Shown: in pieces, positions 22,651 through 33,240 of the stretch
Position numbering within the stretch: position 1 is the first letter of the stretch
How the letters are laid out: each line of letters opens with the position of its first letter
From: a virus
Strand: one strand, 5' to 3'
IMG/VR virus record: IMGVR_UViG_3300050821_006885
Span: 1 to 37,365 of that record
DNA: 37,365 nucleotides
Translations under genes and position numbers: made by a program
Notes under the pieces: generated by a model
What the model saw: the letters and a program-made list of their open reading frames with translations, nothing else
Told to the model about the DNA's origin: nothing
Database searches by the model: none

Positions 22651-22965
22651 GGTGGAAAGAGCGTTTGTTACATTCTGCTTGTTACAGTCGCCGCGTAAAT
22701 CCTTGCGCGATGCAGGGTTCGAACCTGCGACTTCTTGCGTGTGAAAACTGTGCTCGTGCATTTTGAAATAATTTTGGCCAAAACTCTCGTGCATTCTGAA
22801 TGATTTTTGGCGAAATATCGCTTGACTTTGAAATTTTTGGCCGATTTGACCGGCTTGTATGGCTTTTGTATTGCGTCGCGACAAGGGAAAACGCCACAAT
22901 AAACGACGATCCCAAACTGTCACAGCCCCTCCCTGTTACAGTTTTTCACCCATCCATCTCTAGTG
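22651..22965. other. attP region: tRNA remnant flanked by arm-type repeats
   Basis: 315 bp without a gene, between the RHH and integrase genes. It holds the tRNA-derived core (22704-22745) and repeats on both sides: TTGTTACA at 22665-22672 and 22679-22686, TGTTACAG at 22680-22687 and 22934-22941, a related CTGTCACAG at 22917-22925, and the direct repeat CTCGTGCATT at 22753-22762 and 22786-22795. This matches the layout of a tyrosine-integrase attP with P and P' arms. Confidence 0.7.
22704..22745 (-). other. attP core: 3' half of a tRNA-Val(CAC)
   Basis: On the minus strand the sequence is an anticodon loop TTCACAC, an anticodon-stem strand GCAAG, a 5-base variable loop, T arm GCAGG-TTCGAAC-CCTGC and acceptor strand ATCGCGC plus discriminator A. 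The spacing is exactly that of a tRNA 3' half with anticodon CAC (Val). The 5' half is absent: the upstream bases do not pair with GCAAG. The piece would rebuild the host tRNA after integration. Confidence 0.75.
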
Positions 22966-23952
22966 ATGAACGGTATTTACCGGCGCGGTCGAGTTTTCTG
23001 GTTTGTTTACCGGAAAAATGGAGTTCGCAAATTTGTCAGCCTCAAAACAATCAACGAATTCGAAGCCGTCACATTGGCTTTAGGTATTCTTGATTCGGTG
23101 CGGCGCATCGAATCTTTTCCAGCCCAATCTGACCTCACCAATTTTTTGGAATATCGCCACCCGCGAATCTCAGCAAATTTTCATCGGGACACGAGTCTAG
23201 TTCTCTTGGCTTGGTTAAAGGAAAGCCGGATAAACACCGTTTCGGAGATTACAACGGCCAAATTGCAAATCTGGTTTGATCACAAGTGCCAACTGGTAAA
23301 AGTATCGACGGCCGCTAAATATCTGACTTGGGTCCGCGTTTTTCTAAACTGGTGTATTGATCAACATCTCCGCAACGACAACCCGGCCACCGAGGTCAAG
23401 ATGCCGCGCTTTCATAAGCCATTCCGGAAAGTCTTTGTTTCTAAAAAGACAGTCAAAATGCTCTTGGACGAATGCCAAGATCCGGAACTCAAATATTGTT
23501 TGTTCGCCGGCTTCCATGCGGGCTTGCGCTTCAATGAAGTTGTCATGAGCCGGCCGGAATGGTTTGATTTAACCGAAGGCCTGTTGCACGTCACCAGATC
23601 GCAAGAATGGTTCACCAAAGATGATGAAGATCGCACAATCCCTCTGACGGATGATTTTGCCGCTTTCCTTCGAGTCTATGGTTTACGGGTACCCTACATG
23701 ATTGGTTGCCATAAAAAGAAAGGCAAAAGGTATCGATATACCTTCCGAAAACGGTTTGAGCACTACGTGCACAGCAAAGGGGTTCTGATCACCTTTCACG
23801 ATTGCCGGCGAACCTTTGCGAGCCTTCATGCAAGCGCCGGCACCTCAATTTATAAGATATCAAAATGGCTTGGTGATGGCGTTCAAGTCGTCGAAAAACA
23901 CTATGGGCATTTGACTCCGAAAGATGAACAGATAAACGCCGCTTTTGGTTAA
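22966..23952 (+). CDS. int: Tyrosine recombinase integrase
   Basis: A 328-residue protein (ATG at 22966; a GTG lies one codon earlier). Numbering from that GTG, the N-terminal part has an arm-binding-like start (MNGIYRRGRVFWFVYRKNG), a core-binding SAM-like helical domain spans about residues 70-150, and the catalytic domain spans about 158-329. Catalytic residues are Arg189 in GFHAGLRFNE, Lys219 in the beta turn WFTKDDEDR, His279 and Arg282 in FHDCRRTF, and Tyr314 in EKHYGHL. This is the standard set of a site-specific integrase and shows a temperate phage. Its stop overlaps the endolysin start (TAATG). Confidence 0.95.
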   Translation: MNGIYRRGRVFWFVYRKNGVRKFVSLKTINEFEAVTLALGILDSVRRIESFPAQSDLTNFLEYRHPRISANFHRDTSLVLLAWLKESRINTVSEITTAKLQIWFDHKCQLVKVSTAAKYLTWVRVFLNWCIDQHLRNDNPATEVKMPRFHKPFRKVFVSKKTVKMLLDECQDPELKYCLFAGFHAGLRFNEVVMSRPEWFDLTEGLLHVTRSQEWFTKDDEDRTIPLTDDFAAFLRVYGLRVPYMIGCHKKKGKRYRYTFRKRFEHYVHSKGVLITFHDCRRTFASLHASAGTSIYKISKWLGDGVQVVEKHYGHLTPKDEQINAAFG

Positions 23953-24677
23953 TGACTAAATCAGAGATGAGCACTCCCTTTGATTCGCAAACGATTGGCT
24001 TTATTCGCCGGATTCTTTCGGTTGCCGAAACGGGCAAGGCGGAATGGGATCCGAGCGCGATCTACATCTACGCTGACGACAACCGTTTCAGCCCGGCCCG
24101 CAAACAAATCACCCTTTCAATCGGGTTCACGGAAGGCGGCGGGAATCTGAAAAAAGTGCTCGAGCGCTACATCCTCAAAGGCGGCGCGCTCGCCGGCGCG
24201 TTCGCCACCTATTTGCCGAGCTTGGGCTCAAAAAACCAGCCTTCCAAAGCCAACGATGCAAAGTTGATCGATTTACTCAAAAGCGCCGGCAAAGAGCCGG
24301 TGATGCGCCAAGCCCAAATTGAATGCTTTGAAGAGCTCTACATGGCGCCGGCGTTCGCTTGGGCGGGTGCTAACGGATTCGAGTTGCCGTTGTCTTTCCT
24401 GGTGATTGCCGATAGCTTTTTACATTCGGGCTCAATGTTGCCCAAGCTCTTGAACAGTTTCCGCGAACCGCGGCCAGTCGCCGGCGGCAAGGAAAAAATC
24501 TGGATTCAAGATTATTTAAGAGCGCGCCGCGATTGGCTAAAAGGCCATTCCAACCGGCTTTTAAACAACACGGTTTACCGCGCGAATTCATATTTAGAGC
24601 AGCTTGCCCGAGACAATTGGATGTTGGCCGATTCGCCTGTTGTTATGCACGGAACCAGTGTCGCCCGCCTGGTATGA
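23952..24677 (+). CDS. Endolysin candidate with GH46 chitosanase-like fold
   Basis: A 241-residue protein. Residues 15-80 match GH46 chitosanases: FIRRILSVAETGKAEW (candidate acid Glu26), a strand run ending TLSIGFTEGG, then LERYILKGGALAGAFATYLP. Later VMRQAQIECFEELYMAPAFA and ADSFLHSG match the family's second half. The second catalytic Asp of Streptomyces N174 enzyme (Asp40) has no sure counterpart; Asp42/Asp43 lie near. GH46 shares the lysozyme fold, so cell-wall cleavage is a reasonable role. No signal peptide. The gene starts at the integrase stop and overlaps the next gene (ATGA). Confidence 0.7.
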   Translation: MTKSEMSTPFDSQTIGFIRRILSVAETGKAEWDPSAIYIYADDNRFSPARKQITLSIGFTEGGGNLKKVLERYILKGGALAGAFATYLPSLGSKNQPSKANDAKLIDLLKSAGKEPVMRQAQIECFEELYMAPAFAWAGANGFELPLSFLVIADSFLHSGSMLPKLLNSFREPRPVAGGKEKIWIQDYLRARRDWLKGHSNRLLNNTVYRANSYLEQLARDNWMLADSPVVMHGTSVARLV

Positions 24678-24895: not shown

Positions 24896-24977
24896 CGAAG
24901 TGAATCAGCAACCCGGCAAAGACGATTTGTTTAATCGCGAAAATTGTGAAAGAGCCGGCGCGGTTCTTTAAATTCAA
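24849..24977 (-). CDS. Possible 42-residue membrane peptide at operon end
   Basis: A frame starting at TTG (24977), inside the 3' end of the sulfatase gene, with a clear hydrophobic helix IKQIVFAGLLIHFVIWMILL (residues about 15-34) and a charged end. It overlaps the 3' end of the convergent small gene. A non-ATG start and full overlap make it uncertain; a small holin or anchor is possible since the endolysin is next door. Confidence 0.35.
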   Translation of the reverse strand: MNLKNRAGSFTIFAIKQIVFAGLLIHFVIWMILLAIRLVDLD

Positions 24978-26895
24978 GCACCAGATTTGCTAACCCCGAC
25001 GTCGCATAATTCAGATCCGCCGGCCCGGCCAATGGCCCCAATTGCTTCGGCCAATCGGCGAGCGATTGGACAAATTCGGCAATTGAATTGCCCACCGGCA
25101 CAAAGAGCCAAAGTTGATCGCCGTAAAACTTCATGTATTGCCCGGCTTCCAAGTGCATCACCTCATAGGGATCACTCCGCAAATGGTTGATTGTCGGATT
25201 TGCGGGCACTTCGCGCAGTGCGTCGAAAATGTTCCCAACCATATGCGCGAAAGACACTTTCCAATCGTTCCAGCGCACGGCGTTCAGTTGGCCGCTTTGG
25301 CCGAAATACAGGAAATATTCCCGCGGCGCTCGGTCAACTTCGCCCAAGAAATAGGGCATAAAGTCGAACCCGTCTAAATGCACTTTCCAGGTTTTATCGC
25401 GTAGCCGGCGCGATTTGCGGCCCGCCTTGAGGTCGGCGACGACATTGGGATTGCCGGCGGCCGCCACCAATGTTGGAACGATATCCTCAAAAGAGAAAAT
25501 AGCGTTTTCCCAAGTGCCGGGCTCGATCACGTCAGGCCAACGCATCACGAACGGCACGCGGAAACCGCCCTCGAATGTCGTCCCTTTCTCGCCGTGAAAC
25601 GGTGTATTGCCGCCATCGGGCCAACTCGCGTGCTCGGCCCCGTTGTCGGTTGTCCAAATGACAATCGTGTCATCGGCAATTTTAAGTTTGTCCAATAACT
25701 CAAGCAACCGGCCGACAAACTTGTCATGCTCTAAGATCGCATCACCAAAGAGCCCGATCCCGGTGACTCCTTCACTCTCTTTTTTCAGCCGGGTCCAGAC
25801 ATGGCATCGGCTTGGGCAAACCCAACAAAAGAACGGCTCTTTGGCGCGCGCGGCCTCTTTAATGAAACTCTCGGCCCGCGGCGCAATCTCTTTATCGTCA
25901 TAATCGGGCATGCGAGCTCGGGTTAGCGGCCCGGTATCTTTAATTCGCTGATTGCCTTGCGGGCCGAATCGCGGATCCTCGCGAATGTCTGGCGGCGGCC
26001 GATCCGTCGCCTGGCAATCCAACACCCCGCGCGGGCCGTAAGATGCGAGAAAGGCGGGATCTTTGGGATAAAATTCGCCCTCGGGTTCCTCGCTCGTGTT
26101 CAAGTGATACAAGTTCCCATAGAATTCATCGAAACCGTGCACGGTCGGTAAATGCTTATTCCAATCGCCCAAATGATTCTTGCCGAATTGCCCGGTGCGA
26201 TAGCCTTCCTCTTTCAAAAGATCGGCGAGCGTTGGTGTCCAATCCGGAATTCCATGTTCACTCCCGGGCATCCCCACCGCAGTCAAACCAGTCCGAAACG
26301 GACATTGCCCTAGAATGAACGCCGAGCGGCCGGCGGTGCAACTATTCTGCCCGTAAGCGTCGGTGAAGATGGCGCCTTCGGCCGCGATCCGATCGATGTT
26401 AGCGGTGCGAAAGCCTTGAATCCCGTGCGTATAAGCGCTCACATTCGAAATGCCCACGTCATCGGACATAATGACCAGGATGTTAGGCTTGCTCTTGCGC
26501 CGCTGCCGACGGCGCCGGATAAGATGGCCGAGGCCAAGTTTGCGCTTTTGCTCATCGGTGATCGGTTCATCGGGTAGCGGTTGCGCCGGCGCCTCGGGCT
26601 CGCCTGGCAATGGTTGTGTCGGCACGCCGGCGCTCGGCGGTTCCATCGGATAAGTCGGGCTTTCGGGATCGGGCAAATTGATCGGCGGCAAAATTTCAAC
26701 GTCCTGATCGGTGTGCCCGTCGGGCAAACTAATCGGCGGCGCCACCTCCCCGCCTTGATCAATTAATTTACGCACTAGCACCCATTTGGCTTGGTAAATG
26801 TAGTAAAAGCCTTCACTGCGGACGGCATAAACATCGCCTATTTGAGCCTCTTCGGGCAATTGGTCAACTGTCTCAACGGTTCCTTTGATTTCCAT
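24931..26895 (-). CDS. Arylsulfatase with tail-fibre N-terminal module (virion sulfatase candidate)
   Basis: A 654-residue protein. Residues 1-45 (VDQLPEEAQIGDVYAV... YYIYQAKWVLV) form a short phage fibre module ('DLP..A.IGD.Y.V....Y.YDG..WV'). Residues 46-125 are a Pro-rich linker, then a basic patch (RRRRQRRK). Residues about 136-654 are a type I sulfatase: Asp145-Asp146 in VIMSDDVG, the Cys-x-Ala-x-Arg signature CTAGR (Cys186, to be oxidised to formylglycine), Lys239/His241 in GKNHLG, His365, Asp417-Asn418 in TTDNGAE and Lys437 in GEKGTTFEGG. All metal and substrate residues are present. No signal peptide, so it is made in the cytoplasm, as virion proteins are. It sits at the end of the tail-fibre operon. 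Confidence 0.93.
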   Translation of the reverse strand: MEIKGTVETVDQLPEEAQIGDVYAVRSEGFYYIYQAKWVLVRKLIDQGGEVAPPISLPDGHTDQDVEILPPINLPDPESPTYPMEPPSAGVPTQPLPGEPEAPAQPLPDEPITDEQKRKLGLGHLIRRRRQRRKSKPNILVIMSDDVGISNVSAYTHGIQGFRTANIDRIAAEGAIFTDAYGQNSCTAGRSAFILGQCPFRTGLTAVGMPGSEHGIPDWTPTLADLLKEEGYRTGQFGKNHLGDWNKHLPTVHGFDEFYGNLYHLNTSEEPEGEFYPKDPAFLASYGPRGVLDCQATDRPPPDIREDPRFGPQGNQRIKDTGPLTRARMPDYDDKEIAPRAESFIKEAARAKEPFFCWVCPSRCHVWTRLKKESEGVTGIGLFGDAILEHDKFVGRLLELLDKLKIADDTIVIWTTDNGAEHASWPDGGNTPFHGEKGTTFEGGFRVPFVMRWPDVIEPGTWENAIFSFEDIVPTLVAAAGNPNVVADLKAGRKSRRLRDKTWKVHLDGFDFMPYFLGEVDRAPREYFLYFGQSGQLNAVRWNDWKVSFAHMVGNIFDALREVPANPTINHLRSDPYEVMHLEAGQYMKFYGDQLWLFVPVGNSIAEFVQSLADWPKQLGPLAGPADLNYATSGLANLVLEFKEPRRLFHNFRD

Positions 26896-26898
26896 TTG

Positions 26899-27225
26899 CT
26901 AGGGGTTTTTCTGTGTTTGTTGCTCTTCCAATCGTTTGATTGAGTTGAGCATGATTACTTGATTCGCTAAAGCTATCTTGATTTGGGCATCTAATGTTTT
27001 TTGCGTTTCTAAAGCCGCTTGGTAGCCATCACTGATCGCGTGAATTTCATTAATTGCCCGGTTAAAATCCGCCCGGTTTTCTTCCTCGGCTTGGTGCCCT
27101 TGGATAAAGTTGCCGCCGCCGGCCAGCACCACTAAGGCCATCAATAGCTTTTGGCCGTTTTCGCCCGTAAGCAATACGCTTAGGATTCTTCCGAAGCCGT
27201 TACGCTTTCCTTGAGCCGCGTCCAT
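26899..27225 (-). CDS. Membrane-anchored coiled-coil protein, unknown
   Basis: A 108-residue protein with one hydrophobic segment (KLLMALVVLAGGGNF, about 27-41) and a long charged coiled coil after it. It overlaps the end of the upstream gene by 46 bases; a TTG 17 codons in would start nearer its stop. The shape recalls small phage lysis or i-spanin-like proteins, but it lacks a clear anchor at the very N-terminus and its partner is absent. Function unknown. Confidence 0.55.
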   Translation of the reverse strand: MDAAQGKRNGFGRILSVLLTGENGQKLLMALVVLAGGGNFIQGHQAEEENRADFNRAINEIHAISDGYQAALETQKTLDAQIKIALANQVIMLNSIKRLEEQQTQKNP

Positions 27226-27401
27226 AGGTTTTTATCTCTGGTTTGCCGAGCCCGCAGCTCGGCCATTTGTTTTTCGAGCTCACGCATTTGTTTTACAAGT
27301 AGACTCACGGCCGCGGCCAGGTTTTCGAGCCGGGCCGCGTCCAAGCCCGCCGCCGGTTCGGTTTGCACAAATCCAACAAAACCGCCCTTTGTCGTTTTCA
27401 T
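27180..27401 (-). CDS. Small coiled-coil protein, unknown
   Basis: A 73-residue protein, start MKTTKGGFVGFVQTEPAAGL, chosen by ATGA overlap with the gene before. The second half is a coiled coil: LENLAAAVSLLVKQMREL and on. It may trimerise. Part of the fibre operon, function unknown. Confidence 0.5.
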   Translation of the reverse strand: MKTTKGGFVGFVQTEPAAGLDAARLENLAAAVSLLVKQMRELEKQMAELRARQTRDKNLWTRLKESVTASEES

Positions 27402-27556
27402 AGTAACCAATCCGGTATCTCTTGGGTGCCCTCGTGCGTTTTGATTTCGGTTTCCTTCGCGGTCTTTTCCTCGGTCGTAATCCTCGAGCTCGCCGGCGCA
27501 TGGAAGCCGAAACCGGCCCCAGGCCCAAATTCTGTGAGTTTGCAAGAAAATGGCAT
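27398..27556 (-). CDS. Small protein, unknown
   Basis: A 52-residue protein starting MPFSCKLTEFGPGAGFGFHA, two bases after the stop of the fibre gene before it and overlapping the next gene by ATGA. This frame is preferred over two overlapping longer frames because its ends fit the operon exactly. No family recognised. Confidence 0.5.
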   Translation of the reverse strand: MPFSCKLTEFGPGAGFGFHAPASSRITTEEKTAKETEIKTHEGTQEIPDWLL

Positions 27557-27558
27557 TC

Positions 27559-28257
27559 TTAAAACGAAATGGTTAAATCGAAAATCTCATTCAGATATAT
27601 ATCGCGCGTTGGTTGTGGAACGAGCACCTCTAATTCGCCAGTGCTTCGCAACCTTAAAGCTACATTCCAAAATTGATTTGCCGCCGCGGGCGCCCCGACC
27701 GCAATTCGGTATTGGAGCGCTAACGCCGGTCGAACACCAACGGGCAACGTGCCGACTAAAACCCAAGTTCCTGGCGTAATCTCGCTTCCGGTAAGCCGTT
27801 GAAAGGTGCCGATCACCTCCAATTGATCGCCAAAATGTAATGTCCGATAAGCGGCGGCCATCGCAAACCAACCAACCCCCGGGAACGCTTGCCCTGGCCC
27901 CGCGGCCCGTTCCCAAGCACCATTGCGCCGGCCGTAAGCCTGACCATCAAGCGGTGCCTCACCGATCCCGGCCGCACCGATCCGTTGGTTAGTATCTAAA
28001 ACGTAGGTAAGCGGCCCCTCGGCCACGAGCGAAATTTCCATAGAACGCGGCGCGCTCTCGCTATCGGTAAAGGAAAAGCCGCGTTCAAGTTTGGTCGAAT
28101 CGTGCGCGCCAGGCGAAGCGTGCCCGCCCGAATAGTTAAACCAGAGGGTGCCGGGCCCGTAATTGACAATCGACCATTGAGCACCGCGCGTGTACCACTC
28201 AAGGTTTTCACTTTCTAAGGCGGCTAGTTGCCGGGTGTTCTGTCGGCTCGCCTGCAT
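27559..28257 (-). CDS. Tail fibre-like protein, short paralog
   Basis: A 232-residue protein whose N-terminal 100 residues (MQASRQNTRQLAALESENLE, later WSIVNYGPGTLWFNY and LDTNQRIGAAG) repeat those of the next gene upstream. Then LDGQAYGRRNGAWERA, a common phage tail-fibre repeat unit, and a C-terminal beta-rich head. The paralogy suggests a duplicated fibre domain that may bind the same baseplate site. It probably contributes to host recognition. Confidence 0.7.
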   Translation of the reverse strand: MQASRQNTRQLAALESENLEWYTRGAQWSIVNYGPGTLWFNYSGGHASPGAHDSTKLERGFSFTDSESAPRSMEISLVAEGPLTYVLDTNQRIGAAGIGEAPLDGQAYGRRNGAWERAAGPGQAFPGVGWFAMAAAYRTLHFGDQLEVIGTFQRLTGSEITPGTWVLVGTLPVGVRPALALQYRIAVGAPAAANQFWNVALRLRSTGELEVLVPQPTRDIYLNEIFDLTISF

Positions 28258-28262
28258 TGCTT

Positions 28263-29525
28263 TTAAGTCATGGTCAAACTGAAAATATTCGAAACATAAA
28301 TGGAAGCCGTTCCTTGCAGCTCGGGCACCGCGGCCAAATCGCGCGGTGCGTGGCCGAAAAAGCTAAGGTCGCCGTTAGTCCCCAATTGCAAAAAGCCGTA
28401 TTCGATTACTTGGTTTAAAGTTGCATCCGCGGGCGTGCCGGCGGCACAAGCACAAATTTGAATTTGTTGACCAATACCTGTTGGACGATACGCGGGCGGC
28501 AATTGGCAAAGGGTTGTCGGCGGCACACCAGGCGGCAAATAATCCGCAATCCCGGCCCGTTGTATTTGCCCGACAATTTGCACTTGCCCGCCACCGTTCA
28601 AATGCCGGTACCGCAATTGTGGCGTGCCCAACCATCCGGTACCGATGACGTTTATCGTTTGAATAGCACCAGGCGCCGCTAGAGCGTCAACGTAAGCTTT
28701 GCGGGCCGCGTGGTTGGTTTCGGTCGGATCGCCGCCATCCAATATAATATGCCGGGCATGAGCGTCGATCGTGGTCGCACCGGCGCCGGTTTGAAAAATA
28801 AACTCATCCGCAAACGCGTTTAAAACGAGTTTGCCAATCCGAAACCCGCCGTTTTGCACCTCGTTATTATTCATGAACACGATCGCGATCGCGCCCGGGA
28901 CGAGAGTTTGATTATAGTTTTTTGCAGCGTGCGCCAGGATGAGGTTTTGCAAATTCCATTGTGTCGGTGTTCCAACCGGCCGGACTATTTCGAGCCGACC
29001 GCCATCAATATTTAAATTGCCGTCGTCAATCACTAAATTACCGGTCACGGTGTCGCCGTCTTTATTTAAAACCGGGATCCAGGCGCCATCACCGCCGCGG
29101 CGGCCGTGCGTCGTCGGATTAAGCGGTGCCTCGGGCACGCCAGGCGAGACCGCATCCCAAGCCGCGTTGCGCCGGCCATAGAGCTCGCCATCCTCGGGCG
29201 CCTCTGGAATCCCGGCGCCTGGCGGCAAGGTGCCGGCACCGTAGCGTTGGTTCGTATTCAAGCAATAGGTCACGTTGCCGGCCTCGGCGTGCAAAGAAAG
29301 TTGCAAAGCCCGCGGCGCGCTTGCGCTATCAGTGAATGAATAGCCGGCCTCGAGCTTGGTTGCTTGCACTTCGCCGGGCGCCGCGTCAACGCCGGGCGTG
29401 TAGCTAAACCAGAGCGTCCCCGGCCCGTAATTGAGAATCGACCACTCAGCCCCTTGCGTAAACCATTCCATGATTTCGGAAGCGCCGGCGGCCAGTTGAC
29501 GGGTGTTTTGGCGGTTAGCTTGCAT
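28263..29525 (-). CDS. Tail fibre-like protein, long paralog
   Basis: A 420-residue protein sharing its N-terminal 100 residues with the next gene (MQANRQNTRQLAAGASEIME). The middle has fibre repeats GELYGRRNAAWDAV and HGRRGGDGAWIPV, then VTGNLVIDDGNLNIDGGRLE, a stretch of beta repeats, and the AARKAYVDAL motif often seen before phage fibre tips. The C-terminal part (about 290-420) is a beta-rich tip domain similar to that of the neighbour. A ribosome-binding AGGAAA precedes the ATG. It probably binds the host surface. Confidence 0.8.
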   Translation of the reverse strand: MQANRQNTRQLAAGASEIMEWFTQGAEWSILNYGPGTLWFSYTPGVDAAPGEVQATKLEAGYSFTDSASAPRALQLSLHAEAGNVTYCLNTNQRYGAGTLPPGAGIPEAPEDGELYGRRNAAWDAVSPGVPEAPLNPTTHGRRGGDGAWIPVLNKDGDTVTGNLVIDDGNLNIDGGRLEIVRPVGTPTQWNLQNLILAHAAKNYNQTLVPGAIAIVFMNNNEVQNGGFRIGKLVLNAFADEFIFQTGAGATTIDAHARHIILDGGDPTETNHAARKAYVDALAAPGAIQTINVIGTGWLGTPQLRYRHLNGGGQVQIVGQIQRAGIADYLPPGVPPTTLCQLPPAYRPTGIGQQIQICACAAGTPADATLNQVIEYGFLQLGTNGDLSFFGHAPRDLAAVPELQGTASIYVSNIFSLTMT

Positions 29526-29556: not shown

Positions 29557-31371
29557 TCAGTTTCTACCGTCATTTTTTTCTAAAATCGGTTGTTGCCCAA
29601 TTTCAGGCAATTGTTCTCCTTCAGCAGGGCCGGTCCGGTTAAAATAGCAACCGTCATCTGACAATCGCATAGGAAATGGTTGATTCGTTGTGCCAAAATC
29701 AATTATCCCACTAACATTAAGCCCACTCAAAAGCGTTAGCCTAATATCGATTAGACTAAAATTGGCTCTCGCGTACAAAAGACTGTTAGCCGCCACTACT
29801 ACATTGCTATTCATGCTTACAGACACTCCATCGGTAGCATTATCGCCAAAATAACAGTTGCCCATTTGTGTCCAACCTTGATTATTACAAGCCAACCCAG
29901 AACCAGCATGACAGGCATGGCCGCGGCATGCTGACAATATTACATAAGCGCTTTCATTTCGCCAATTAAAGGCAGTGTTATGATTGATAAAACAATTATT
30001 TCCAGCCAATACGGTGCCAACACCAGAAATATAGATTCCGGTTTGATTATCAGTTACATAACAACTATCGATGCTTGAGGAACCACCAGTAAATAGGAGA
30101 CCCCTTCCTTGAGCAGTTTTGAATCCAGTTGATCCAATCCATTCGAGATTAGCATTCCTATGGACGGCAAGTCCATCGCCGGAATTCGCACCGCGCCCGA
30201 CCAATCCAAAGTGACGGAATAATTTCAAGCCATTACCGTAAATCTCTACGGCATTGACAGCATCGACATCGACTCTAATTAGGCTGCTCATCTTCCTCAT
30301 GAAAGCAGTCACCGCCCCTATCTCAGCTAACCCTGGACGATAATAGGGAAATAAAATCTGCACAAATCCCGAGCCTACCAAGGTGATGCGATAAAAACCA
30401 TTTAATAGGGCGACGTTTCCAGAATGACCAAAAATAATCACATAATCACCGACCGCAAAAGGTGTCGAGTCAATCACGTTAATATTTAACGTATAAGCAC
30501 CTGCTGATCCGCCTGGAAAGGCGACAAAGGTAATAGCGGTTTCCGGTCCCTGCGTACCTAGGACTTCAATTCGATCGCTTTGCGGATGCTCTATCCGAAT
30601 CGGAGAAGTTATCGGTTGAATAAAAGTATCCACATTGATTCGTGCGGTTCGCTCCGGGGGAATATTAATCGGTCTCAGATAATCGAGGGCATCTTGAATC
30701 GAACTAAAGCGCGTTACAGGCGTTCCGGATGGGTGTGTCAAAGGCACATAAAGATCAAGATCTGTTGTCAAAACTTTTTGCGCAATAGTTACGGTGAACG
30801 GATCAAGCGGATTTTCGGTTAATTCAATACCATAACCGGCGACGGGCCGTTTAAATCTGAGCGTGTTTCCGATCTTTTCTTTAAACCAACCTGGCCCGAC
30901 GGTTTCGGCGCCGATATTCTCAACTAAAATATCGCCGCTGGTGCCAATAACGACCGTGACGTTTGGCGCCCGATCGATCACCACTTTAATTTTAAAAGCG
31001 TGAATGGATTCAACCGCCGGGTCGACGTTATCCGCGCCGGTCGCCAAAACGTTCGCCACCGAATAGAGCCGGTCGGCCTCGGTGCCGATGTGCGCCATTA
31101 CCCCGAGCTCGCACAGCTCAAAAGCGTTTGGCGCCTGGCTCGAATTAAAGGCCGCATCAACTAACAAAATTCCGTCGCCTTGGTCGACTTGCTGAATAAT
31201 CACGACATTCATTTCATGATTAAAGAGCTCAGTCCTCGGCCAAAGGTCGGCCGGCGCGTTCGCGCGACCACTACCAATGACAACCCCGGTAATCGCCAGG
31301 GTTTCGCCGGCATTGGCTCGGCCTAACATGTCGCGGCCGGCGTTCGTGAATTCTTGTCGGTTAATGCTCAT
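29557..31371 (-). CDS. H: Tail fibre / spike, P2 gpH-like N-terminus with beta-helix
   Basis: A 604-residue protein; start MSINRQEFTNAGRDMLGRAN at 31371, coupled to gpI by ATGA (an upstream in-frame start is less likely). Residues 1-140 match the N-terminal domain of P2-like fibres: AGRDMLGRANAGETLAITG, then ELCELGVMAHIGTEADRLYS. From about 260 the protein is a right-handed parallel beta-helix, with ladder repeats such as NCYFGDNATDGVSVSMNSNV, the architecture of depolymerase-type tailspikes. No catalytic triad can be named by eye. It would bind or cut a surface polysaccharide. Confidence 0.85.
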   Translation of the reverse strand: MSINRQEFTNAGRDMLGRANAGETLAITGVVIGSGRANAPADLWPRTELFNHEMNVVIIQQVDQGDGILLVDAAFNSSQAPNAFELCELGVMAHIGTEADRLYSVANVLATGADNVDPAVESIHAFKIKVVIDRAPNVTVVIGTSGDILVENIGAETVGPGWFKEKIGNTLRFKRPVAGYGIELTENPLDPFTVTIAQKVLTTDLDLYVPLTHPSGTPVTRFSSIQDALDYLRPINIPPERTARINVDTFIQPITSPIRIEHPQSDRIEVLGTQGPETAITFVAFPGGSAGAYTLNINVIDSTPFAVGDYVIIFGHSGNVALLNGFYRITLVGSGFVQILFPYYRPGLAEIGAVTAFMRKMSSLIRVDVDAVNAVEIYGNGLKLFRHFGLVGRGANSGDGLAVHRNANLEWIGSTGFKTAQGRGLLFTGGSSSIDSCYVTDNQTGIYISGVGTVLAGNNCFINHNTAFNWRNESAYVILSACRGHACHAGSGLACNNQGWTQMGNCYFGDNATDGVSVSMNSNVVVAANSLLYARANFSLIDIRLTLLSGLNVSGIIDFGTTNQPFPMRLSDDGCYFNRTGPAEGEQLPEIGQQPILEKNDGRN

Positions 31372-32015
31372 AAATTCCAAGGCGGCGCCGGCGCCTCGCT
31401 CGTGACATATTTCCAGGTTAAACTTGCCGCACCCCACCAAATTTCTAGATCACTTCGGCGCGCTCGGATGATTCCCTCGGACCATCGCGTCAGCGGTTTG
31501 TAAGCTTGGACAATTTGGGCAACCCGTTGCTCGGCCTCGGGATTAACTACGTCTTGATCAATAATAATCCGGAACCGATAGCGATCATGCCAAGTGCCGG
31601 CGCCGCCAGGATCATCGATCGGATAGTTTGGCGGAACGGGATTGGTTTTATATTCAAACCATTCTTGCACCACCGCCGAGCCGGGCGGGAAAAACTGATC
31701 GCAAACATCTTGGATCAATTGCACCGTGCCTTTGCGGGTGTGCCAATCTAGGCTCGCTTTAATCACCATTTGCTTTAGTGCCACGGGTGCGGCCGCGTCA
31801 TAGAAATCGACATGGAATTGCCAGGCTAACAAATCCAAAAGCTTGTGATCGGTGATTTGATCGATCGCCGGCAAAATGATCGTTTGGGAAATGTCATCGA
31901 TTAGTTCCCGAAATTGCCAGTCGAGCGCTTCACAAATCGCCTGGACATTAACGTCATCCGCAATCGATGGCGGGCACGCATCAATTAATCGGCTTTCTCT
32001 GATTGGCACGCTCAT
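31368..32015 (-). CDS. I: Baseplate/tail protein I-like
   Basis: A 215-residue protein starting MSVPIRESRLIDACPPSIAD. It contains LLDLLAWQFHVDFYDAAAPV and ASLDWHTRKGTVQLIQDVCD, both characteristic of P2 gpI, a baseplate protein linking wedge and fibres. It lies between gpJ and the gpH-like fibre, as in P2. Length is slightly above P2 gpI (176). The 3' end overlaps the fibre gene (ATGA). Confidence 0.85.
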   Translation of the reverse strand: MSVPIRESRLIDACPPSIADDVNVQAICEALDWQFRELIDDISQTIILPAIDQITDHKLLDLLAWQFHVDFYDAAAPVALKQMVIKASLDWHTRKGTVQLIQDVCDQFFPPGSAVVQEWFEYKTNPVPPNYPIDDPGGAGTWHDRYRFRIIIDQDVVNPEAEQRVAQIVQAYKPLTRWSEGIIRARRSDLEIWWGAASLTWKYVTSEAPAPPWNL

Positions 32016-32016
32016 T

Positions 32017-33240
32017 TTAGGGATCCTCGAATCCGCGGAACGTCACGACTTTTTGGTCCGGATCATTTACGGCCAATTGATTATAGGCCAAATCTTGATA
32101 GGCCGGGATCACCGGCACGAAAGCCCCGGGCGCCGAACCGGTGCCGGCAACTCGTTTCGCGCCGGCCTGGATCACGCGGCGCACCAATTCATCGGGAATA
32201 ATGTCGGCGCCGATCGCGCCGCGTTCCCAAAGAATCCAATCGTCAATCGCCTGGTCAACCTTTTGCTGAATTTCGGCGATCACGATTTCGTTTTCGCGCA
32301 AAGCCCACCAATCCAACCCGATCGGATAAAGAACCTCTTGAGGCGTGAACACGCTCACGTAATCGGCCACCGGCCGCTTGTCGCGCGGGTTGCAAGCGGC
32401 AAGCACATCGGCCAAAACTTCCGGTGGCGGGATTTGGCCGCCGCGCATGAGCGGATAAAGATGCGCCTCGCCGGCAATCGCGGGCGCCGAATAGACCACA
32501 CATTGAATGATATCCGGGTGTGCCCGCAACGCCCAATAGCGATAAGCATCCTCGGGCCCGCAGGTCGAAAAGCTTTCCGGGGTCAACCAGGTCCGATATC
32601 GATAGCGATCGTCGGCCTCATCATCGGCGCCACCGTCGGTTTCGGTAATGTTGCGAACATTGACGCCGAACGGTTGGTTCCAATTGACCAGGGCCGAAAC
32701 CTGGCCCGGGACGTAGCCATTGCCGACTCGGCCAATGGTCAGACAATAGGCTTGTGAAGAGCCGCTTTGTTCCCCCGCTGGAATCAAAATCGCATTTGTT
32801 GTCTCAAAGACCAGTTCGTTAATTGTGGCCGCTTGTGCCTTAACCGGGATCAGTACATCGACGCCCATGATCGCCGTTAAGGTAAACTCGAGCGTGGTTC
32901 CCGCAGCTTGCGCCGGCACCCGATCGGCGCGCGGCCCGTAGAGCGCGGCAAGCTCGGTCAGGAAATCCCCGACCGAATACTTCAAAAGATTCATTTTGCA
33001 CCCCTGATCGATCAACACCCGCAATTGAACGATCAACTGGCAAACGGTCAAAATCAGCATTCGGATTGGATCGGCCGGCGCGAGGGTCTTGGCAATGTTA
33101 GTCAAGGCCAAGTAAGCCGCTTCATAGTCGGCGATCGCCTCGGCCTTGATGAGCTGCGGGTCTTTATACGCAAACTCGACATCGGGTACGTGCGCCAGGC
33201 TCGGCGGGTAGGTAGGCTGATATATAGGCCCGTTGCTCAT
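32017..33240 (-). CDS. J: Baseplate wedge protein J
   Basis: A 407-residue protein with helical N-terminus (KAEAIADYEAAYLALT), ELAALYGPRADRVPAQAAGT, the beta-rich body of P2 gpJ, GGADDEADDRYRYRTWLTPE (a strongly conserved motif of gpJ proteins) and a C-terminal helical end. In the baseplate it joins the wedge with W and I. It follows the gp25/W gene and precedes gpI, the P2 order. Starts where W ends. Confidence 0.92.
   Translation of the reverse strand: MSNGPIYQPTYPPSLAHVPDVEFAYKDPQLIKAEAIADYEAAYLALTNIAKTLAPADPIRMLILTVCQLIVQLRVLIDQGCKMNLLKYSVGDFLTELAALYGPRADRVPAQAAGTTLEFTLTAIMGVDVLIPVKAQAATINELVFETTNAILIPAGEQSGSSQAYCLTIGRVGNGYVPGQVSALVNWNQPFGVNVRNITETDGGADDEADDRYRYRTWLTPESFSTCGPEDAYRYWALRAHPDIIQCVVYSAPAIAGEAHLYPLMRGGQIPPPEVLADVLAACNPRDKRPVADYVSVFTPQEVLYPIGLDWWALRENEIVIAEIQQKVDQAIDDWILWERGAIGADIIPDELVRRVIQAGAKRVAGTGSAPGAFVPVIPAYQDLAYNQLAVNDPDQKVVTFRGFEDP

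Follow-up and report, generated by a model that had tools for sequence, protein, structure and literature searches.

A protein of 654 amino acids (P0001), encoded at the downstream end of a phage late operon, joins a sulfatase domain to a short N-terminal module of the kind found in tail proteins, and the question raised by this locus is whether the sulfatase is carried on the virion. The phage tail enzymes known to process glycans either cleave the polysaccharides of the host or remove acyl groups from them. The whole stretch of DNA analysed, hereafter the window, is the 37,365-nucleotide IMG/VR record IMGVR_UViG_3300050821_006885. It is a contractile-tailed, temperate phage with genes for terminase, lambda-type portal, capsid, sheath, spike, baseplate W, J and I, replication proteins, a GH46 enzyme and integrase. 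No tape-measure gene was found in the window, and the record begins and ends inside tail genes, where it has probably been truncated. The relatives of the capsid protein in Pseudomonadota genomes are only 35-36% identical. The genes around the sulfatase are as follows.

32017-33240, minus strand: baseplate J (profile matches)
31368-32015, minus strand: baseplate gpI, Tail_P2_I (profile matches)
29557-31440, minus strand: beta-helix tail fibre with a phrog_7037 N-terminal domain (profile matches)
28263-29525, minus strand: tail-fibre-like protein (PHROG matches; 67% identity to G001)
27559-28257, minus strand: short tail-fibre-like protein (weak PHROG tail matches; 75% identity to G001)
27180-27545, minus strand: small late-operon protein of 121 aa (in the sister phage L077 its end forms part of a fibre ORF)
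26899-27225, minus strand: 108-aa protein with a transmembrane segment and a coil, probable lysis gene (weak Rz-spanin match, E = 0.075; its ortholog in L073 precedes a GH46 endolysin)
24931-26895, minus strand: sulfatase fusion protein P0001 (ORF call; PF00884 match; dN/dS ~0.03 against its relative L002)
23952-24677, plus strand: GH46 glycosidase, probable endolysin, convergent with the sulfatase gene (PF01374, E = 1.2e-12; the L073 enzyme follows the 108-aa ortholog)
22963-23952, plus strand: tyrosine integrase (profile match; marks a temperate phage)

The plus strand across 24931-26895 is full of stop codons, and P0001 reads on the minus strand. It can be divided into the following parts.

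26761-26895, minus strand: tail-fibre module, residues 1-45 (PHROG, tblastn and module-profile matches)
26560-26760, minus strand: Pro-rich linker, residues 46-112, predicted to be disordered (pLDDT <50 over residues 48-112)
26494-26556, minus strand: basic helix, residues 114-134, containing KLGLGHLIRRRRQRRK (basic stretch kept in the relative L003)
24934-26490, minus strand: S1-type sulfatase domain, residues 136-654 with the core at 137-481 (PF00884, AlphaFold model, fold matches)
26326-26340, minus strand: formylglycine motif C186-T-A-G-R190 (aligned with CTSSR of PsFucS1, 7aj0)

The PF00884 match covers residues 137-481 of P0001 and positions 1-300 of the 301 of the profile (E = 1.8e-49). 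The catalytic set is complete (D145, D146, C186, K239, H241, H365, D417, N418 and K437), and the metal and sulfate ligands (DD, K-x-H, H, DN, K) align with those of PsFucS1 (7aj0), human STS and GALNS. The catalytic positions are invariant or nearly so among 17 aligned relatives, with Cys186 replaced by Ser in L017. The motif CTAGR fits the pattern C/S-x-P/A-x-R and has Ala where Pro is commoner. The sulfatase core was modelled confidently by AlphaFold, and the closest folds to the model are those of STS (Z 40.8), ARSA (40.4) and PsFucS1 (40.3), with Z values of 32-41 across many sulfatases. P0001 thus contains a complete type I (S1) sulfatase domain that appears to be functional, and every residue number named in the initial annotation was right. 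One can imagine that the protein has the same location and a different chemistry, i.e., that the domain cleaves phosphate diesters or phosphonates rather than sulfate esters, since a formylglycine-dependent phosphonate monoester hydrolase/phosphodiesterase exists (Jonas 2008, as cited in PMC3920027). The nearest solved relatives, PsFucS1, STS, ARSA and GALNS, are all sulfatases, however, and the model of PehA, a phosphoric/sulfuric ester hydrolase, gave 33.8 bits against a cut-off of 900, which makes this alternative very improbable.

The short segment in front of the domain had been read as a fibre module. Residues 1-45 have a match to PHROG 35286 (E 2.4e-5) and weaker ones to two PHROGs of tail fibres; in tblastn searches with this segment, all informatively annotated matches were tail proteins, the best of them (E 2e-4) being the C. 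difficile BppU baseplate protein. A profile built from five foreign modules picked P0001 alone among the window frames and 5000 shuffles (E 3e-13). Since the five modules had been chosen partly by similarity to the P0001 query, this result is circular in part, and the other module copy in the same BppU protein, which was not chosen by similarity, was therefore searched. It retrieved 289 phage records. Those listed carry annotations as tail fibres, as minor tail or lateral fibre proteins, as BppU, or as collagen-like or hypothetical proteins, and the tail association of residues 1-45 follows from these annotations. By these similarities the segment is a genuine tail-fibre module, and the fibre-domain searches bore out the initial reading. 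Searches of the PDB with the module profile gave marginal matches only, the best of them being 8y6v, whose chain is named gp184 (E 0.005).

The Pro-rich linker and the basic patch that had been described behind the module are both present, and the AlphaFold model is disordered over residues 48-112 and helical over residues 114-130. The N-terminus of P0001 is acidic and non-hydrophobic, and it is true that there is no signal peptide (signal peptides were called by eye and hydropathy throughout).

The genes from gpW to the sulfatase form an uninterrupted minus-strand run, with -73 to +31 nt between neighbouring genes and 3 nt just before the sulfatase gene. No promoter of the sulfatase's own was found, promoter and terminator sites were not in excess, and the codon use of the gene is that of the structural genes; the features expected of a moron, namely a promoter and a terminator of its own and an atypical composition, were not seen at this gene. 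The description of the sulfatase gene as the last of the tail-fibre operon is right in that it ends the late operon, and has to be amended in that the gene 3 nt upstream encodes a lysis-type protein with a transmembrane segment and a coil, not a fibre.

These observations bear on lysogenic conversion or auxiliary metabolism, whereby a prophage-encoded sulfatase would yield sulfate or sugar for the host from sulfated glycans. The window phage is temperate and its sulfatase gene lies between tail genes and the integrase, a usual site of conversion genes; a sulfatase relative in the phage G003 likewise stands apart between tail genes and integrase. The distance of 3 nt from the late gene that precedes it and the promoter and terminator counts speak against such a role, as does the missing signal peptide: the lysogen would not export the sulfatase, unlike nearly all bacterial relatives. 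We consider this explanation improbable.

The 108-aa gene and the sulfatase gene are in the same frame, with a TAG stop and one codon between them (minus-strand positions 26893-26901 in the window and 7995-8003 in L002), and TAG is the rarest stop codon in the window phage. Readthrough of this codon would produce a membrane-anchored fusion. Recoding of TAG at the junction is unsupported; the codon ends 5 of the 33 genes. Farther upstream, the adjacent fibre-like proteins encoded at 27559-29525 have their first ~120 residues in common, and there are more copies in sister phages.

A search for homologs in other phages, suggested earlier, found phage-borne relatives (L002, L003, and those in G005, L054 and G003). 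INPHARED contained no close phage homologue: no record covers more than 69% of P0001 and all are below 40% identity. Many of the INPHARED matches are unannotated gut records named "Bacteriophage sp." or bacterial-looking contigs and were not counted as phage relatives. L002, from the same metagenome, is 97% identical to P0001 and has the same architecture; the neighbouring fibres of the two phages are 54-75% identical. L003, from a different phage of the same metagenome, is 74-76% identical and starts within the Pro-rich linker, with neither fibre module nor signal peptide; it is located between an HNH gene and the terminase gene, after a 33-aa transmembrane peptide. In G005, a contractile phage, the sulfatase (L011) follows collar-fibre genes and is close to an endolysin gene, and the relative in L054 is close to GH46 and portal genes. 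Both L011 and the L054 protein have predicted signal peptides.

Such enzymes are also frequent on Pseudomonadota chromosomes, with relatives at E<=1e-90 in 47 of 398 genomes; of 12 bacterial relatives examined, nearly all begin in a signal-peptide-like manner. In the phylogenetic tree, the window clade is nested among bacterial enzymes, and well-supported branches require the phage label to have changed two times or more. If a bacterial ancestry is assumed, phages would have acquired the sulfatase at least twice. The dN/dS values relative to L002 are 0.09 for the module, 0.04 for the linker and 0.03 for the catalytic domain, and the value relative to L003 is 0.06; the sulfatase is under strong purifying selection.

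The place occupied by the sulfatase gene has other contents in sister phages. In L073, whose baseplate J is 72% identical, the 108-aa ortholog is followed directly by GH46 and then by a Pro-rich protein; in L074 and L077 (J 87% identical) the genes behind it are those for a Pro-rich protein of 171 aa, a signal-peptide protein of 583 aa, an M15 peptidase endolysin and the integrase. The sulfatase thus sits in a variable lysis or cargo slot and not strictly within the fibre set, and the varying content of the slot is the main weakening of the proposal that the enzyme is virion-borne. It is compatible with a free late enzyme, a cargo of the lysis cassette that would build up in the cytosol and be freed at lysis, loosening a sulfated matrix or the surface of neighbouring cells for the progeny, with the module serving in oligomerisation or glycan binding. 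The signal peptides of L011 and the L054 protein, the position of the latter beside GH46, and the lack of a fibre module in L003, behind its transmembrane peptide, favour the same explanation. So does the lack of a common anchor: no counterpart of residues 1-135 was found in this phage's own fibres, which have other N-termini, although anchors differ between fibres. On the other hand, in the window and L002 proteins the signal peptide has been swapped for a module that is under selection and is otherwise a tail-protein module. We regard a free enzyme as the main rival of a virion-borne one, though as less likely than not.

The 583-aa protein of the sister slot (L077 4571-6322) looks beta-helix-like by eye. 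Nothing above noise matched it in Pfam, in the PDB or among phages, and its single-sequence model, with a pLDDT of 34, is too poor for use. Short, very Pro-rich proteins adjoin lysis genes at L077 4001-4516, L073 12993-13439 and L034 15704-16198, and they are similar to the sulfatase linker in composition. Chitosanase-type GH46 genes occur in or near the lysis region in the window (23952-24677), L073 (12243-12950) and L054 (7787-8566), and probably encode endolysins.

That P0001 is a late sulfatase which acts outside cells is likely and well supported. The best reading of its N-terminus is attachment to the virion, and to a sulfatase carried on the virion in this way we give about an even chance. 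Several observations speak for a virion location: the catalytic site is intact and both the core and the linker are constrained; the module at residues 1-45 is known from tail proteins, and the signal peptide typical of nearly all bacterial relatives is missing; the gene is the last in a contiguous baseplate and fibre operon and has the codon use of structural genes; a near-complete phage gene set surrounds it; and G005, also a contractile phage, carries such a sulfatase behind its collar-fibre genes. The earlier proposal of a virion-borne desulfating enzyme therefore stands as far as the fusion of a sulfatase to a fibre module in a contractile phage is concerned, and is weakened by the missing shared anchor, the lysis-type slot with its lysis-type neighbour, and the signal peptides or bare linker of other phage relatives. 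In addition, foreign copies of the module are usually internal in their proteins, often beside collagen-like repeats, and the module by itself is not a known attachment domain.

For the virion-borne enzyme the following course of events may be envisioned. An exported bacterial S1 sulfatase would have been captured by a phage, as the tree suggests, and in the window lineage a fibre module and a long flexible Pro-rich arm stand where the signal peptide would be. Judging from the short gaps, the gene would be co-transcribed late with the baseplate and fibre genes; the protein would be synthesised in the cytosol, where a formylglycine-generating enzyme of the host would mature it, and would be joined to the tail by its fibre module. 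When the phage meets a new host, the enzyme would strip sulfate esters from the glycan of the surface or matrix and thereby let the phage reach or expose its receptor. We put the chances just short of even for this picture, in which the phage particle bears a formylglycine-dependent sulfatase on an arm derived from a fibre and desulfates the surface glycan of the host as it approaches.

Neither an FGE nor a radical-SAM gene was found in the phages, so the maturation of C186 must be host-derived; the lack of a signal peptide would fit maturation in the cytosol. The radical-SAM enzyme anSME, first thought to be specific for Ser-type sulfatases, accepts Cys as well (PMC3920027). PsFucS1, a fucoidan sulfatase of subfamily S1_13 (PMC8484680), is the best PDB sequence match of P0001 (E 3.9e-43), and has the same fold (448 residues at 2.7 A) and a Cys-type nucleophile; it is a bacterial protein without a fibre module, and its 25% identity to P0001 is too distant to assign S1_13 or a substrate.

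Several other known systems resemble P0001 in part. Exported Pseudomonadota sulfatases such as L056 and L057 are up to 57-60% identical to it over the whole catalytic domain; these chromosomal proteins are ~525 aa long and have signal peptides, and they lack the fibre module, the linker and the phage operon. Conversely, BppU of the C. difficile phage, gp156 of phage EL, gp151 of phi92 and mycobacteriophage minor tail proteins contain a module homologous to residues 1-45, and none of them showed a sulfatase domain. Phage tail deacetylases act on the host surface glycan from the virion. P0001 would share such action from the virion with depolymerase tailspikes (PMC6966330), and unlike the lyases, glycosidases and deacetylases among tailspikes it is a predicted formylglycine sulfatase removing a sulfate substituent. 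Giant-virus sulfatases have a similar fold (Yasminevirus A0A5K0U8V6, E 1.3e-21 in BFVD); this protein comes from a eukaryotic giant virus, is 18% identical and has no fibre module.

The earlier statement that no sulfatase tailspike is well established agrees with our searches. The significant BFVD matches were giant-virus sulfatases only, with no tailed-phage sulfatase among them. In the open-access papers searched, an absence from which proves little beyond open access, we found no phage sulfatase tailspike and no arylsulfatase described as a phage auxiliary metabolic gene, subscription papers being outside this scope; the word "sulfatase" is absent from the depolymerase review PMC6966330. 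Phage-borne sulfatase genes are already present in databases (PHROG 19870, unknown function). The gene type is thus not new, and it is the fusion with a tail module that stands out.

If P0001 is indeed virion-borne, it would represent a catalytic class new to phage tail enzymes, in which a bacterial export signal has been swapped for a fibre module and which depends on a radical-SAM or FGE protein of the host for its maturation. A tail sulfatase would mark sulfated glycans of bacterial surfaces as a phage barrier or receptor and would give a precise desulfating tool. The occurrence of a signal peptide, a bare linker or a fibre module on one catalytic domain provides a testable case of the choice between a secreted and a virion-borne enzyme.

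Two further observations were made in the course of the comparisons. Gene product 51 of the crAss-like phage cr56_1 (L043 3261-4502), a tail protein, is annotated as "similar to sulfatase, major tropism determinant", and its gene adjoins a module-bearing gene and a reverse transcriptase gene; it probably has an FGE/C-type-lectin fold rather than being a sulfatase. G002 contains two adjacent large capsid-like ORFs (L032 13437-15992 and 15895-18369), one of which has a capsid-like N-terminus followed by fibre-like stretches and is possibly a decorated or fused capsid protein.
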